A stretch of DNA of 35,035 nucleotides. It comes from Deltaproteobacteria bacterium. Its GTDB lineage: Bacteria > Myxococcota_A > UBA796 > GCA-2862545. Location: the NCBI GenBank assembly GCA_011376105.1, contig DRPG01000548.1:1-35035 (forward strand), given 5' to 3'. This document shows positions 9,771 to 17,351 of the stretch, in pieces (the stretch's first letter is position 1; each line of letters begins with the position of its first letter). Under the pieces are notes generated by a model. That model did not search any database. It saw only the letters and a list, made by a program, of their open reading frames with translations, and was not told the DNA's origin. The translations under genes were made by a program, and so were the position numbers.

Positions 9771-11114
9771 TCAGGGACAGGGCGCCTGTCTGTCACAGAG
9801 GCGTGACACGATGAGCCGGAGCCCCCCCGGAGCCTCCACCACCCTGGCGAGCACCGTGGTGCTGGAGCCCAGGGGGATCCCCAGGGGCGCAGAGAGCAGG
9901 ACCGACTCTCCATCCTCTAGGATCATCTGCCCCTCTCCATGGGTGGATCCCAGGGCCAGGGGCTCGAGCTGCGCCACCGTGCCGGTGATCTTGCCCCATT
10001 GGCGTACGTGAGCCCCGAGGGCTTCGAGGGATCGGAGCTCGGGCAGGCCCTCGAGGTTGGGGGCGACCCCATCGGCGAGCTGTAGGCTCTCGAGCCGGAG
10101 CCCCAGCCCCGCGGGGTAGCTCGGCTCCCGCTCGTAGACCCGGGCCTCCCCGCGGGCGACGACGCGGCGGCCCTGCAGCTGAGCGTGGGCTGGATCGGGC
10201 TGGTCGGCCAGCAGCCACTCCTGCCCGTCGTCGAGCAACAGCAGCTCGGGCGCGGTGCCGTCGATCCCAGGGGGGGCCTGGACGAACACGCCCTCCTGCT
10301 CGATCGTCGGCCCCGGGGCGTCGCCTGGAGCCGGGGCCCGCAGCGACAGCTCCGCCGGCTGAGGACGCCGGCCCACGAGCCGGTGTAGCTCGCTCCGGGC
10401 GTTGTCGACGATCCCCGTCTGGGCGTCGGCGATCCAGTCGAAGTCGACGGGCAGCAGCGCCTTGAGGCTCTCCCCCGCCTGCTCCGGATCGTCGGACAGG
10501 GCCGGCGGGAGGACGCGGAGAGGGGCGCTGGCCAGCACCGCTCCACCGGTCATCAACACGTCCTCCCACAGCCAGACGACGCTGCCGGCGGTGTGCCCCG
10601 GCGCTGAGAGCGCCTGCAGGGTGGTGCCGTCGATCTCGAGCTGCTGTCGGTCCACGACGGTGTGCAGGATCTCGGGTGCGGGGGGCTGATCGATCAGTAG
10701 GCTGAACCACCTCGCCAGCCAACCCCTGGGCGCGGCCTGACCCCGTAGCAACGCCTCGTCCCCCTCGCCCACATACACCGGGACCCCGGGGAACGCGGTG
10801 AGGCCGGCGATCTGCTCGCCGTGGGCGTGGGTGAGGAGGATCGCGTGCACCGGGCGACCGTCGATCTCCCTCCGGACCGCCGCGGCCTGGGGATCGAGAC
10901 CCGCGTCGATCAGGACGACCCCCCCCTGAGTGGGCACGATCCACACATAGGCCCCGCCGGACTGGACCCCGACGAGCTCGTGGGGGCCCCGGATCCGCTC
11001 GCCCTGGGCCGGAGGGAGATCCCACATCACCCAGGCCGCTGCGGTCATGCCGACGAGCAACGGGGCGAGGATCAGGACAGCGAGGGTAGACAGGACGTAG
11101 CGCAGGCGAAGCAA
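9771..11114 (-). CDS. Membrane-anchored metallo-beta-lactamase-fold protein with degraded metal site
   Basis: 447 aa from a TTG at 11114 with TGGAG five bases upstream. An N-terminal hydrophobic helix (STLAVLILAPLLVGMTAAAWV) anchors the protein, with the fold outside. The beta-lactamase fold is recognisable: VVLIDAG (Asp70), LTHAHGEQIAG (93-104), APGHTAGSVVWLW (171-183). The usual HxHxDH is HAHGEQ here, so Asp and the third His are Glu100 and Gln101; the usual GD ligand is Gly-Gly (190-191); and the final His is not found (DWIADAQTG). His96, His98 and His174 remain. Two beta-rich segments in the last 180 residues resemble OB folds (VVARGEARV, ITGTVAQLEP). It may be non-catalytic or use one metal. 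It lies 31 bp after the nucleoside phosphorylase gene. Confidence 0.8.
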   Translation of the reverse strand: MLRLRYVLSTLAVLILAPLLVGMTAAAWVMWDLPPAQGERIRGPHELVGVQSGGAYVWIVPTQGGVVLIDAGLDPQAAAVRREIDGRPVHAILLTHAHGEQIAGLTAFPGVPVYVGEGDEALLRGQAAPRGWLARWFSLLIDQPPAPEILHTVVDRQQLEIDGTTLQALSAPGHTAGSVVWLWEDVLMTGGAVLASAPLRVLPPALSDDPEQAGESLKALLPVDFDWIADAQTGIVDNARSELHRLVGRRPQPAELSLRAPAPGDAPGPTIEQEGVFVQAPPGIDGTAPELLLLDDGQEWLLADQPDPAHAQLQGRRVVARGEARVYEREPSYPAGLGLRLESLQLADGVAPNLEGLPELRSLEALGAHVRQWGKITGTVAQLEPLALGSTHGEGQMILEDGESVLLSAPLGIPLGSSTTVLARVVEAPGGLRLIVSRLCDRQAPCP

Positions 11115-12152: not shown

Positions 12153-12605
12153 GTGCACATTCCCCAGGTGCTTCGTCCACGCATCGTCGCTGAGCACAAC
12201 GGGCAGGTCGCCGTCGCCCTAGAGGACGATCGGATCGCCCGCACGCTGGTGCTGAGCCTCGGCACACTGGCGGTCGGCACCCTGGGGGCGGGCTTCACCG
12301 TGGGGGGGCCGCTGTGGCCCTGGGTGGGCCTGGGATCGGTGCCGGTGCTCAGCCTGATCGCGATGGGGCTGGCGGCGACGGTGGGGCGGCGCACCGTCCT
12401 GCTGATCCTCGATCCCCGGACGCTGTGGCTGGCCGAGCGCAGCCTGGAGCTGGGGCAGATCCAAGGGGTCCGGCTGGAAGAAGAGATGTTGTGGCTCGAC
12501 ACGAGTCCCGAGCCGACCCGGATCTGCCTCTCCGGAGAGGAGGAGGTGGTGCGGGAGGCCGTCGTAGACTGGCTCCGGGCCCGGATCGAGGAGGCGAGGG
12601 CCTGA
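12153..12605 (+). CDS. Two-helix membrane protein, unknown function
   Basis: 150 aa from the GTG at 12153, after GGGAGG. After a short polar N-terminus (VLRPRIVAEHNGQVAVALED) come two hydrophobic helices (LVLSLGTLAVGTLGAGFTVG and WVGLGSVPVLSLIAMGLAA), then a small beta-rich soluble part (TVLLILDPRTLWLAERSLEL, GVRLEEEMLWLDTS, TRICLSGEEEVV) that ends in a helix. The layout resembles small bacterial proteins with a PH-like domain behind a helical hairpin, but I cannot assign a family. Its TGA overlaps the ATG of the next gene by one base, so it heads a translationally coupled group of four. Confidence 0.75.
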   Translation: MHIPQVLRPRIVAEHNGQVAVALEDDRIARTLVLSLGTLAVGTLGAGFTVGGPLWPWVGLGSVPVLSLIAMGLAATVGRRTVLLILDPRTLWLAERSLELGQIQGVRLEEEMLWLDTSPEPTRICLSGEEEVVREAVVDWLRARIEEARA

Positions 12606-14404
12606 TGGCGCGCGCCTCGCTCATGCGGGGGTGGACGTGCGCTACACCGCTCGGGCGATCGTGGCGCGGGCTGGGGTGGAGCGGGCGATCGTGGCGCGGG
12701 CTGGGGTGGATCGGGCTGGGGTGCGTGGGCTCCGCCTGCATGGAGCCACCCACCGAGCCCCAGGGGGCGTGGCTCACTCCGGTCGAGCACGCGGTGCGGG
12801 CCAGCCTGACCGTGCGGGGGCTGCGCCCCTCCGCGGCGGAGCTGACCACGGTCCAGCAGGATCCTGCGGCGCTCGATGGCCTGATCTCCACCTGGCTGAC
12901 CGAGCCCGCCTTCGGGGAGGTGGTGCGGGATCTCCACGCTGAGATCCTCCGGATCCGGGTCGACACGGTGCAGCAGTTCCCGGCCCGGGGGCTGCTGCGG
13001 GGGGTCGAGCTGGGGCAGATCAACCGCTCCACCACCGAGGCCCCGCTGAGGCTGATCGAGGCGATCGTCACCGAGGGGCGTCCCTACACCGAGATCCTCA
13101 CCGCAGACTGGATCCTCGCCGATCAGACGCTGGCCACGATCTATGGGCTGCCCTACGATCCAGAGGGAGCGCAGTGGCAGCGCACCTGGTGGACGGATGG
13201 GCGGCCCGCGGCGGGCCTGCTGTCGAGCTCTGAGCTGTACCATCGCTATCCGTCCAACGGCAGCAACTTCCACCGGGGGCGGGCCAACGTCATCGCCTCG
13301 ACGTTCCTGTGCGACGATATCGGTCAGCGGCCGATCGCGGTCGAGGACACGCCGGTGGCCACCGACGTCGCCGACGTGGTGGAGGCCCTGAGTCACGATC
13401 CAGGCTGTGCAGGCTGTCACCAGGCGCTGGAGCCCATCGCCAGCTTCCTGTGGGGGTTCAAGGCGGTGCTCCCACCGAAGTCGATGGCGGCCTACGAGGC
13501 GATCGACTGCGAGGTCGAGGGCTACGACGAGCAAGAGCTGCTGCCCCCCGCCGCCGGCTTCGCCGAGGATCTGTGCTACCCGCTCCGGCTGTACCATCCC
13601 GCAGAGGAGCGCACCTGGGAGTCGCTGGGGCTGCCCGCTCCGGCGCTGTATGGCCGCCCCGGGGAGCGGATCGACGATCTAGGCCGGATGATCACCGAAG
13701 ATCCGAGGTTTGCGATCTGCACCGCCCGACGGTTCGCCGGCTACCTGCTGCAGGCCGATCCCGAGACCCTGGATCATGCGATGGTGACGGAGCTGGCCGA
13801 GTCCTTGGTGGCGTCGGGCTTCGACGCACGGGCCCTGATCCACCGGATCGTGACCTCGGACGCGTTTCGGGCGGCACAGCCAAGGCACGTGCTCCGCCCC
13901 GAGGCGTACGCACGCTCCCTGGAGGCGCTGACCGGCTTCGTGTGGCTGGGGGCCCACGCCGACGGCTGCGATCCCGAGACCTGCTGGGGGACGGTGGATC
14001 TGGCCAACAGCGATCTGTTTGGCTTCCGCACCCTGGCCGGCGGCATGGACGGGATCCAGCGCACCGCGCCGACCCATGTCCCGACCCCGAGCAAGCACCT
14101 GGTGTGGGTGCGGCTCGCGTCCGAGGCCGCCGACGCGGTGGTCGACGCCGATCTGGCCGAGCCCGATCCCTCCCGACGGAGGCTGCTGCGTGCGCTGGGG
14201 CCCGATCCTGCGCACCCGATCCGGAGCCAGCTGGTGGCGCTGCAGCTGGCGATCCTCTCCGAGGCGGTGGCGCCCGATGATGTCCAGATCCTGCGCCTCG
14301 AGGCCGTGTTCGCCGAAGCGATGGCCCGCCACGGTGATCCGGCCCGGGCCTGGAAGCTAGTGATCACCGCGCTGCTGACGGATCCCCGGGGGGTGTTGCT
14401 GTGA
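12605..14404 (+). CDS. Exported CxxCH-containing protein, DUF1592/DUF1588-like
   Basis: 599 aa. The ATG overlaps the preceding stop (TGATG). The N-terminus is an odd, Trp/Gly/Arg-rich signal with a ten-residue duplication (GRSWRGLGWS, GRSWRGLGWI), followed by Cys40 and Cys45, either of which could be a lipid-modified Cys. The central part is like the DUF1592/DUF1588 modules of deltaproteobacterial and planctomycete surface proteins: LLSSSELYHRYPSNGSNFHRG, then IASTFLCDDI, then a c-type-haem-like motif GCAGCHQALEPIASFLWGF (Cys268, Cys271, His272). Helical segments with RFAGYLLQADPET and LVASGFDARALIHRIVTSDAF follow, as in that family. A haem role is inferred from CxxCH only. The next gene encodes a DUF1501 protein, a common partner. 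Confidence 0.8.
   Translation: MARASLMRGWTCATPLGRSWRGLGWSGRSWRGLGWIGLGCVGSACMEPPTEPQGAWLTPVEHAVRASLTVRGLRPSAAELTTVQQDPAALDGLISTWLTEPAFGEVVRDLHAEILRIRVDTVQQFPARGLLRGVELGQINRSTTEAPLRLIEAIVTEGRPYTEILTADWILADQTLATIYGLPYDPEGAQWQRTWWTDGRPAAGLLSSSELYHRYPSNGSNFHRGRANVIASTFLCDDIGQRPIAVEDTPVATDVADVVEALSHDPGCAGCHQALEPIASFLWGFKAVLPPKSMAAYEAIDCEVEGYDEQELLPPAAGFAEDLCYPLRLYHPAEERTWESLGLPAPALYGRPGERIDDLGRMITEDPRFAICTARRFAGYLLQADPETLDHAMVTELAESLVASGFDARALIHRIVTSDAFRAAQPRHVLRPEAYARSLEALTGFVWLGAHADGCDPETCWGTVDLANSDLFGFRTLAGGMDGIQRTAPTHVPTPSKHLVWVRLASEAADAVVDADLAEPDPSRRRLLRALGPDPAHPIRSQLVALQLAILSEAVAPDDVQILRLEAVFAEAMARHGDPARAWKLVITALLTDPRGVLL
12653..12712. repeat. 30-bp tandem duplication in signal-peptide coding region
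   Basis: Two copies, 12653-12682 and 12683-12712, that differ at a single base near the end. In the CxxCH protein frame each encodes GRSWRGLGW plus Ser or Ile, so the duplication lengthens the export signal by exactly ten residues. Confidence 0.9.
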
Positions 14405-15654
14405 GCTGGTCTCGTCGGGCGGTGCTGGCGGCGTCGGCGTCGGCACTGGGGGTGCTGGCGGCTGCGGGGCCCACGCGGCGGCGCCGGCTGATCGTGGTGC
14501 TGGCCGATGGCGGCTGGGACGTCAGCTATGTGTTCGATCCCAAGCCGGGGCTGGCCACGGTGGAGGGCCCCGAGGTCGATCGCGATCCAGGCGATCGAGG
14601 TGACGTCGAGGCGCTGCAGACCTTCTCCGGGCTGACGGTGCAGGTCAACGAGGCCCGCAGGCCCGCGGTCAGCGCCTTCTTCGAGGCCTGGGCCCACCGC
14701 TGTGCGGTGGTCAACGGGATCTTCGTCGGCAGCATCGGGCACCACCTGGCCCGGGTGCGGATGCTCACCGGGATCGCCAGCTCCCACCCCGGCCCTGATC
14801 TGGCCCAGATCGTCGGCGCGAGCCACGCATCGGGGGTGGCGGTGGGCTGTGTCGATCTGTCGGGGTTCTCCTCGCCCGGCCCCCTGGCCGCCACCTCGAT
14901 CGGGGTCGGGGCCCGCAGCCAGCTGGCCTCGCTGCTCGATCCCGCGGCGCCGATCCCACGCCCGGCGGGGCTCCCGTCCGAGCGGAGCTGGATCCCCGAC
15001 GCCGCCGATCTAGACGCGCTGACGAGCTACCACCACGATCGGCTCGCGCTGCTGCCGCCGGGGCCCGGCGCCGCCGATCTGGGGGTGGCGCTCGAGCGGG
15101 CGGAGGCGCTGCGGGACCGCTCTGACACCCTCACCTCGATCCTCCAGCCGGGCCGGGCCCCGACGCTGCCCGGCCAGATCGATCTCGCGGTGGCGCTGCT
15201 GGCCGAGGAGCTCTGCCACACCGTGTTCCTCGACACCGCCGAGGGCTGGGACACCCACAGCGACACGGTGAGCCAGCACGGACTGTTCGATCGCACCTTC
15301 ACCCAGCTCGATCGCCTGGTGCGGGGGCTGCGGTCCGCGTCCCTGCTCGATGACACGCTGGTGGTGGTGCTCTCGGAGATGACCCGGGCGCCGGTGCGCA
15401 ACGTCCAAGGGGGCAAGGATCACTGGCCCCACACCTCGGCGCTGCTGATCGGGGGGGGCACGGTGGGGGGGCAGGTGCTGGGCCACACCGATCCCTGGCT
15501 GCAGGCGCTGCCGATCGATCTCCAGACGGGGCTGCCCGATCCAGGGGGCGTCCGCCTGGATCATGCGAGCTTCCTCGCGGGCCTGCTGGAGCGCCTCGAC
15601 GTCGATCCCGGAGCCTGGATCCCGGGGGTGCAGCCATGGCGCGGCGCCTGCTGA
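14401..15654 (+). CDS. DUF1501 family protein with Tat-like signal
   Basis: 417 aa. GTG start in a GTGA overlap with the previous gene. The N-terminus SWSRRAVLAASASALGVLAAAG has a twin-arginine pair and a hydrophobic stretch, as in Tat-exported proteins. The fold is the sulfatase/alkaline-phosphatase-like DUF1501 type: LIVVLADGGWDVSYVF at the start, AEGWDTHSDTVSQH in the middle, and VVVLSEMTRAPVRNVQGGKDHWPHTSALLIGGG late, the family hallmark (commonly SEFGRTP...GRDHWP). GGQVLGHTDPW follows. No enzymatic activity is established for the family; it is usually encoded next to cytochrome-like DUF proteins, as here. A 19-bp overlap joins it to the next gene. Confidence 0.88.
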   Translation: MSWSRRAVLAASASALGVLAAAGPTRRRRLIVVLADGGWDVSYVFDPKPGLATVEGPEVDRDPGDRGDVEALQTFSGLTVQVNEARRPAVSAFFEAWAHRCAVVNGIFVGSIGHHLARVRMLTGIASSHPGPDLAQIVGASHASGVAVGCVDLSGFSSPGPLAATSIGVGARSQLASLLDPAAPIPRPAGLPSERSWIPDAADLDALTSYHHDRLALLPPGPGAADLGVALERAEALRDRSDTLTSILQPGRAPTLPGQIDLAVALLAEELCHTVFLDTAEGWDTHSDTVSQHGLFDRTFTQLDRLVRGLRSASLLDDTLVVVLSEMTRAPVRNVQGGKDHWPHTSALLIGGGTVGGQVLGHTDPWLQALPIDLQTGLPDPGGVRLDHASFLAGLLERLDVDPGAWIPGVQPWRGAC

Positions 15655-16757
15655 TCGGGCTGTGGCTCACGGGCTGTGGCGGAGGCCCCGGCCCTGAGCC
15701 GGCTGAGGGCTGTGATCCCTCGTTGTCGTGGGACGCGGTGGGGGCACCGTTCGTCACCACCTGGTGCACCCCATGCCACGCCGAGGGCCTGCAGGGGCCC
15801 GCCCGCTCCGGTGCGCCGGTGGGGCTCGATCTCGAGACGCTGGAGCAGGTGCGAGCAGCAGCGGATCGGATCCGGGCGCTGGCCTTGTCCGACGACGCCA
15901 CGATGCCCCCGGCGGGCCCCGCACCCGCCGACGAGCGGGGCCGGATGGCGGCCTGGCTGGACTGTGGTGCACCGGGGACCTCCGTCCCGATCGAGCCCCC
16001 GGGCTGCGACGGCCCGGTGTGGTCCGGCCCCCTCGTCGCCTCTAAGGGGCCGGGGCCCTGTCCAGGCCACGCCCGCCTGGGCGGAGATCTGGTGGTGGAC
16101 GAGGCGCTGGATCCCTCCTGGGGCTGCGTCTGCGCGATCGACGGCACGCTGTCCGCCCGCGCTCCCCAGGTGGTGCTGCCGTCCCTGATCCAGGTGGGGG
16201 CGCTGTGGGGAGAGGCTCCCCTGGAGCGGCTGGAGCTGCCGTCCCTGGCTGAGGTGGAGGGCGAGATCAGGCTACAGGGCGACACCCTGCAGCAGGTCGC
16301 CCTGCCGCTGCTCGCCCACACCGGCGCGCTGATCCTCTCCGACGCCGGGCAGCTGTGGGATCTACAGCTACACCGGCTGGCCACGGTGGACGGTGCGCTC
16401 ACGCTGCAGGCGCTGCCGTCGCTGTCCTCTCTGCAGCCCCTCGACGCGCTCGTGGAGGTGGGCGGTGCGGTGCAGCTCGACGGGCTGGGGATCGTCGAGC
16501 CCCTGCTGCTGCGACGCCTGGCCCGGGTCCACGGTGCGCTGATCCTGGCCAACAACCCCGGCTGGATCGCGCTGGACGGCCTGGACGCCCTGGTGCAGGT
16601 GGACGGCGCGCTGCAGATCGTGGACAACCCCGAGCTTGTGCGCCTCGGGGGGCTGCCCGGGCCGGTGGAGATCGAGGGCGGGATCCTGATCGAGGGCAAC
16701 GAGGCCCTCTCAGACACAGAGATCGCTCTGTTCCTTGCACGCCTGTCGGGGGGATGA
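15636..16757 (+). CDS. Lipoprotein with CxxCH motif and repeat domain
   Basis: 373 aa. ATG start within the end of the DUF1501 gene. A very short lipoprotein signal, MARRLLIGLWLTGCGGG, has its lipobox Cys at residue 14. Next is a planctomycete-cytochrome-like stretch with WCTPCHAEGLQGPAR (Cys44, Cys47, His48) and an MPPAGP motif downstream (position of a possible second haem ligand), ending at GRMAAWLDCGAP. The C-terminal two thirds is a regular series of about 23-residue beta repeats (VDGALTLQALPSLSSLQPLD, VHGALILANNPGWIALDGLD, VDGALQIVDNPELVRLGGLP), resembling receptor L-domain-like right-handed solenoids. This suggests surface display with a redox or metal site. Last gene of the four-gene block; a palindrome follows. 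Confidence 0.82.
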   Translation: MARRLLIGLWLTGCGGGPGPEPAEGCDPSLSWDAVGAPFVTTWCTPCHAEGLQGPARSGAPVGLDLETLEQVRAAADRIRALALSDDATMPPAGPAPADERGRMAAWLDCGAPGTSVPIEPPGCDGPVWSGPLVASKGPGPCPGHARLGGDLVVDEALDPSWGCVCAIDGTLSARAPQVVLPSLIQVGALWGEAPLERLELPSLAEVEGEIRLQGDTLQQVALPLLAHTGALILSDAGQLWDLQLHRLATVDGALTLQALPSLSSLQPLDALVEVGGAVQLDGLGIVEPLLLRRLARVHGALILANNPGWIALDGLDALVQVDGALQIVDNPELVRLGGLPGPVEIEGGILIEGNEALSDTEIALFLARLSGG

Positions 16758-16856: not shown

Positions 16857-17351
16857 TCAGAGGATCAGGACCACGAAGATCGTGGTGAACATGGCCGCAA
16901 AGAACAGGGCCGTGAGCAACATCCCAAGGAGGAACGCCGACAGTGGAGACAGACCCACCGGGTCATGGAGCGGATGGAGCGGATGGAGCGGATGGAGCGG
17001 ATGGAGCGGCAGGGCCCGGGACACGGGGGGGGTGACCTCCCGGGGAGGCGGCACGATCGTGCCCCCCGAGGACGCGGGCTGGTGCACCTGGGGAGCGCTG
17101 GTCTCGGCCAGCGCCTGCCGCTCCCGCATCATCGCGTCGCGGATGCTCTCGTTGAGCTCCCGCCGCGCCGGGGCCGCGCCCCCGGGCTCCTGGTGGGATC
17201 CGAGGGGATCGAGCACCGGGCCTGTGGGGTTGGGGGGTGGCTTGTTGCTGTCATCCATCAAGACCGTGATGGACTCCTCATCTTCGCCTCCGAGTGAGTC
17301 CTCGCCTTCTACCTTGGGCAGCACGGTGGGATCGGGTGTGGAGGTGGCCAT
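16857..17351 (-). CDS. Tail-anchored membrane protein with His-Pro-Leu repeats
   Basis: 164 aa from the ATG at 17351 (GGAG 9 bases upstream); an in-frame GTG at 17372 has no ribosome site. The long polar N-terminus is acidic and Pro/Ser-rich (GEDEESITVLMDDSNKPPP, then RRELNESIRDAMMRERQAL, a likely helix). Five exact HPL repeats lie just ahead of a single strongly hydrophobic C-terminal helix (SAFLLGMLLTALFFAAMFTTIFVVLIL), so the protein is probably tail-anchored with its bulk in the cytoplasm. I do not recognise the family. It lies 160 bp downstream of arcA on the same strand, across a hairpin. Confidence 0.7.
   Translation of the reverse strand: MATSTPDPTVLPKVEGEDSLGGEDEESITVLMDDSNKPPPNPTGPVLDPLGSHQEPGGAAPARRELNESIRDAMMRERQALAETSAPQVHQPASSGGTIVPPPREVTPPVSRALPLHPLHPLHPLHPLHDPVGLSPLSAFLLGMLLTALFFAAMFTTIFVVLIL
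16965..17009. repeat. 9-bp tandem repeat, five copies
   Basis: Five exact copies of ATGGAGCGG. On the minus strand each encodes Pro-Leu-His in frame in the tail-anchored protein. Confidence 0.95.

Follow-up and report, generated by a model that had tools for sequence, protein, structure and literature searches.

The window analysed here is the whole 35,035-nt stretch of contig DRPG01000548.1 (positions 1 to 35,035, forward strand) from the Deltaproteobacteria bacterium assembly GCA_011376105.1. It carries four overlapping open reading frames (ORFs), A to D, and three of them, B, C and D, form an exported module of three proteins, a myxococcal example of the PSD/PSCyt plus DUF1501 type. The source assembly comprised 6.7 Mb in 766 contigs, was 81% complete and gave 13 DUF1501 matches; genes outside the window were called by a simple codon-score caller. 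An initial annotation of the window, made from the sequence alone, had described four ORFs overlapping by 1 to 19 bp, and both the coordinates and the overlaps were confirmed: 1 nt between A and B (TGATG at 12603-12607), 4 nt between B and C (GTGA at 14401-14404) and 19 nt between C and D (15636-15654). Its descriptions of the products were also borne out. Two hydrophobic segments were present in A, described as a two-helix membrane protein, and the CAGCH motif and the DUF1592/1588-like features of B were recovered as a motif and as Pfam matches. C, described as a DUF1501 protein with a signal of twin-arginine translocation (Tat) type, matched DUF1501 with 81.5 bits against a Pfam cut-off of 27 (E 9e-23) and carried SRRAVL near its N-terminus. 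In D, the lipobox (LTGC), CTPCH and the repeats that follow were all present. The features are listed in Table 1.

Table 1. Genes and sequence features of the A-D region, in window positions.
Feature	Position	Strand	Remarks
Gene A	12153..12605	+	small two-helix membrane protein
Gene B	12605..14404	+	599 aa; helical and exported, probably as a lipoprotein; divergent DUF1592/DUF1588/DUF1585 (PSD4/PSCyt3/PSD2)
CAGCH codons of B, residues 268-272	13406..13420	+	C268, C271 and H272 invariant in 55/55
Gene C	14401..15654	+	417 aa; DUF1501 protein, Tat-like signal (SRRAVL)
Candidate metal-site motifs of C, D284-x-H286 (15250-15258) and K339-D340-H341 (15415-15423)	15250..15423	+	invariant in 54/54
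Gene D	15636..16757	+	373 aa; lipoprotein, cytochrome c domain followed by a solenoid resembling leucine-rich repeat (LRR) proteins and receptor L domains
CTPCH codons of D, residues 44-48	15765..15779	+	fully conserved in alignments A3 and A8
Met90-Pro91 codons, candidate distal haem ligand of D	15903..15908	+	invariant in A3 and A8
Solenoid of D	16083..16754	+	profile A3 matches LRR proteins and the ErbB2 L domain

The recurrence of the genes was examined in two sets of loci. The first held 40 loci from the window's genome and its relatives, mostly chosen by B or D, so that the share of C genes with these neighbours is inflated; the second, gathered from GTDB genomes by searching with C only, held 57 loci, almost all of them from Myxococcota or deltaproteobacterial records, with three Nannocystis genomes among these. 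Some records of metagenome-assembled genomes titled 'Klebsiella pneumoniae' (L094, L098, L104, L107, L108, L110, L124 and L125) bore Myxococcota-typical modules, and these titles are probably wrong. Among 79 distinct C genes, B lay within two genes on the same strand in 72, D in 63 and both in 60. The C and D genes overlapped in 32 of 56 cases, and in 39 of 72 cases at most 20 nt separated B from C. Four called C genes of the second set had no B within two genes: one in a complete locus (L100), one with B three genes off (L142), and two that lie close to or at the end of a contig (L135 and L143). Gene order varied in some clades, where we found B-Dn-C and Dn-B-C (Dn denotes a D protein without a solenoid), and at L085 and L108 two modules lay convergent, tail-to-tail. 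The distances between paralogs within a genome were correlated for all three pairings (B-C 0.61, B-D 0.55 and C-D 0.64, with D represented by its cytochrome domain; 33 pairs, permutation p 0.001-0.003). B, C and D are co-linear, often overlapping and co-inherited, and they have been duplicated as a unit; the set recurs many times in myxobacterial genomes. The cytochrome lipoprotein D accompanies the DUF1501 pair across Myxococcota, Nannocystis included.

The N-terminal domain of D is, judging by its conserved residues and profile matches, a class-I-type cytochrome c with His/Met haem motifs. A Met was found about 41 residues downstream of CxxCH in all 65 CxxCH-bearing D proteins. Six called D ORFs had no CxxCH, and a late called start explains at least some of these. 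The family profile of D matched CcoP and cytochromes c551, c5 and c6 in the PDB, with E values from 1e-5 to 1e-2. As a single sequence, the domain scored 25.1 bits against PF13442, below the cut-off of 27. The CxxCH motifs of B and D are evidently not chance occurrences, since that of B is invariant in 55 of 55 homologs and the downstream Met is present in every CxxCH-bearing D protein.

The solenoid of D had a more restricted history. Its profile matched an LRR protein (5il7, E 2e-20), internalin A (E 1e-19) and domain I of ErbB2 (E ~1e-6); searched as a single sequence, the window's solenoid stayed under the Pfam cut-offs. Solenoid-bearing D proteins spanned 341-706 aa, and the solenoid also resembled portions of other large ORFs in these genomes. 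When its presence was placed on the tree of C (29 tips with the solenoid, 31 without), a single change was needed, on a branch with a Shimodaira-Hasegawa-like approximate likelihood ratio test (SH-aLRT) value of 97. Among the loci sampled, all solenoid-bearing ones with an identified genome came from the window's family, which also has loci with a short D, including two in the genome of the window. On the tree of C, D gained an LRR-like arm once, in one clade. The initial annotation had treated the solenoid lipoprotein as one part of the block; its cytochrome part is conserved beside the DUF1501 pair, and its solenoid part is limited to this clade.

C has a predicted alkaline phosphatase/sulfatase-superfamily fold. 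Its AlphaFold model had a predicted local distance difference test (pLDDT) score of 90.3, and a Foldseek search gave 259 PDB matches at E<=0.001. The matches to sulfatases and to a phosphonate monoester hydrolase had E ~1e-7 and a probability of 1.00. Among the 50 matches listed, sulfatases dominated, together with other members of the alkaline phosphatase superfamily. The identity to sulfatases and phosphonate monoester hydrolases was about 10%, with template modelling (TM) scores of about 0.3-0.5, and a PDB sequence search with C gave no meaningful match. In the alignment of 54 homologs, H114 was conserved in 100%, D40 in 98% and S111 in 88%. Together with D284, H286, D340 and H341, these residues are candidates for a metal site and a nucleophile.

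B was divergent in its domain matches. PSD2/DUF1585 passed its cut-off (E 3e-10, 40.0 bits against 25.8), PSD4/DUF1592 fell just under (E 2.5e-4, 22.0 against 23.3), and PSCyt3/DUF1588 (E 9e-6) scored 26.4 bits by hmmscan against a cut-off of 27 and 30.2, above it, at the DNA level. B also matched DUF1800 weakly. Within the family of 55 members (A6), PSCyt3 was found in 43, PSD2 in 42, PSD5 in 6 and PSD3 in 1; the window's B had neither of the last two, the DUF1587/DUF1595 domains. C236 and C372 were invariant in the 55 homologs, as was CxxCH. The AlphaFold model of B was mostly helical (pLDDT 88.7). A Foldseek search of the model against the PDB gave no match at E<=0.001, and a PDB sequence search gave no meaningful one. 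The B profile gave only a match of 29 residues around CxxCH, to an engineered cytochrome c555 trimer in the PDB. The region encoding the signal peptide of B contains an in-frame tandem duplication of 29 bases with a period of 30 (12652-12710; GRSWRGLGW twice). Another short tandem repeat, of GAGCGGATG, was seen at 16965-17010 of the window.

Several other genes recurred around the module, including protein kinases, MopE-like Cys-rich lipoproteins and an extra exported lipoprotein of about 275-330 aa. The last lay directly or nearly directly upstream of B at L139, L141, L142, L146 and L060 (G000 C358), the latter in the window's own genome, and L149 had a similar-sized gene at the same place. 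In Nannocystis and G014, genes combining CxxCH with a copper type II ascorbate-dependent monooxygenase (PF01082/PF03712) were found co-oriented with B-C-D and one or two genes upstream of it (L118:3895-5292, L148:3958-5310 and L074:4537-5928). These cytochrome-copper monooxygenases hint at oxidative chemistry; with three cases, they serve as a lead only. Genes for c-type cytochrome maturation had been proposed as something to look for, and homologs of the Cytochrom_C_asm family were located on C395 and C88. In the window's own genome, six contigs hold between them six PSCyt3 genes with stronger matches and the six DUF1552 genes (L184-L189; G000 C709, C265, C480, C195, C426 and C192). The PSCyt3 genes retain CxxCH, and those that are complete also have equivalents of the extra Cys residues; one of the six is cut by a contig end. 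No D homolog was found near these pairs in the fetched stretches, and the DUF1592-DUF1552 pairs are therefore regarded as a separate pair type. We considered the canonical DUF1592-DUF1552 module as an identity for B-C-D and rejected it, because the partner (DUF1501) and the architecture (no DUF1587/DUF1595) differ.

The initial annotation had presented all four genes as one block, and this did not survive comparison with relatives. We searched 38 genomes, the window's own included, in six frames for relatives of A. The 37 other genomes contained one clear relative (G001 C213, same genus, 36-37% identity), and a weak match was seen in G022, a genome without a B homolog. The G001 relative divergently adjoins an ortholog (52% identity) of the window's metallo-β-lactamase (MBL)-fold gene (9771-11114, minus strand), and the gene on its other side, which is on the opposite strand, is none of B, C and D. 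An A-like gene was absent from all other fetched B/C/D loci; among the genomes examined, B-C-D adjoins A only in that of the window. A and the MBL-fold gene form a divergent pair conserved within the genus, and in the window a PNP_UDP_1 phosphorylase gene sits between them. A four-gene operon would make A the membrane anchor or electron entry point of the complex. The 1-nt overlap of A and B on the same strand speaks for such an operon and makes co-transcription of both genes probable in this organism. However, given the synteny of A with the MBL gene in G001 and its absence from the other B/C/D loci, we judged A to be a neighbour and not a module subunit. On synteny we rejected the operon with A as a subunit, an explanation that we regard as highly improbable.

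We propose that B-C-D is an exported module or envelope complex combining redox and ester chemistry, with recognition by the D solenoid and with A as a neighbour; we give this proposal about an even chance of being right. In the proposed scheme, B, C and D would form an envelope complex in which the D solenoid, where present, would hold a substrate or partner. C would perform metal-dependent ester hydrolysis or transfer on it. B would do the redox step with a c-type haem whose sixth position is open or filled from outside, and the D cytochrome would shuttle electrons between B and the respiratory chain. Different substrates would be served by the many diverged copies in each genome. The earlier suggestion of a surface redox or polymer-modifying complex remains a plausible inference, given the phosphatase/sulfatase-superfamily fold predicted for C and the presence of cytochrome maturation genes. 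An extended version, in which the subunit that sets the specificity of a duplicated exported redox-hydrolase complex is a cytochrome c fused to a variable leucine-rich recognition arm, giving each genome a repertoire of complexes for different targets, seems unlikely.

Several observations weigh against the proposal. The initial annotation had asked for His in haem-compatible geometry, and at the motif level D agrees with this (CxxCH and the invariant Met); B has CxxCH, and its 55 homologs have no further conserved His or Met column that could supply a distal ligand. Any haem bound by B would thus be five-coordinate or have a borrowed sixth ligand. As there is also no solved relative, B is a haem candidate only, and its four invariant Cys could instead form disulfides or bind metal. 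The metal site of C is a putative one, made up of candidate residues from the alignment. No recurrent neighbour among the B-C-D loci pointed to a substrate, and the papers found gave no functional study of any member family. D is absent beside some C genes and the order of Dn varies, so D may not be essential.

The missing distal ligand of B and its two further invariant Cys fit a non-redox explanation, in which CxxCH of B is structural or metal-binding and the D cytochrome is an electron sink for another enzyme; the module would then be chiefly a DUF1501 hydrolase, accompanied by a helical scaffold B and a surface-binding lipoprotein. The PSCyt3 genes on the DUF1552 contigs, with their conserved Cys and no D nearby, point the same way. 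Against it, D accompanies B and C and shows full conservation of its cytochrome motif, an indication that electron transfer belongs to the function, and we consider the non-redox explanation rather less probable than the redox and ester complex. A role in recognition or signalling is more doubtful still: the diversified solenoid arms of D would sense or adhere to partners, with B and C as structural or maturation proteins. Such a role agrees with the likeness of the solenoid to LRR and receptor L domains and to parts of other large ORFs, and with the variable length of solenoid-bearing D proteins. However, the module lacks a solenoid outside one clade, so that recognition by the D solenoid cannot be the ancestral function.

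Planctomycetes, Verrucomicrobia and Myxococcota are very rich in members of DUF1501 and the PSCyt/PSD families. In the myxococcal version the parts are spread over three proteins, one of them a cytochrome that lends itself to testing on its own, and this version occurs in cultivable Nannocystis (B-C-Dn, no solenoid). Whether these are redox enzymes, and what C acts on, is therefore directly testable.

PSCyt/PSD genes are described in PMC5615132 as numerous genes of unknown function that pair with unknown families, some of them carrying carbohydrate-binding fusions. B-C-D resembles the planctomycete and Verrucomicrobia PSCyt-PSD systems in its domain families, its neighbouring unknown family, its high copy number and its export. 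In contrast to those systems, B is a short protein with no cytochrome fused to its N-terminus; the cytochrome is on the separate lipoprotein D, with an LRR-like solenoid in one clade. The DUF1592/DUF1588-DUF1552 (HXXSHH) pairs share with B-C-D the superfamily of B, CxxCH and a small exported gene cluster, but they have a DUF1552 partner, a full-strength PSCyt3 and no D seen nearby. The DUF1501 clusters of Kamneva et al. 2012, cited in PMC4452313, belong with the planctomycete and Verrucomicrobia systems in this comparison; PMC4452313 describes DUF1501 as lacking biochemical characterisation. DUF1800-DUF1501 pairs adjoin bacterial chitin synthase genes (PMC5122149). They resemble B-C in placing a Tat-type DUF1501 protein beside a DUF1800-like one, the DUF1800 match of B being weak. 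Unlike those loci, B-C-D has no chitin synthase or epimerase, and it has CxxCH in B and a cytochrome lipoprotein. C shares its predicted fold with sulfatases and phosphonate monoester hydrolases, at the low identity given above. The N-terminal domain of D has the CxxCH and downstream Met of class I cytochromes c such as CcoP, c551, c5 and c6, but differs from them in a conserved MP motif, an extra Cys, a lipid anchor and, in one clade, fusion to a solenoid.

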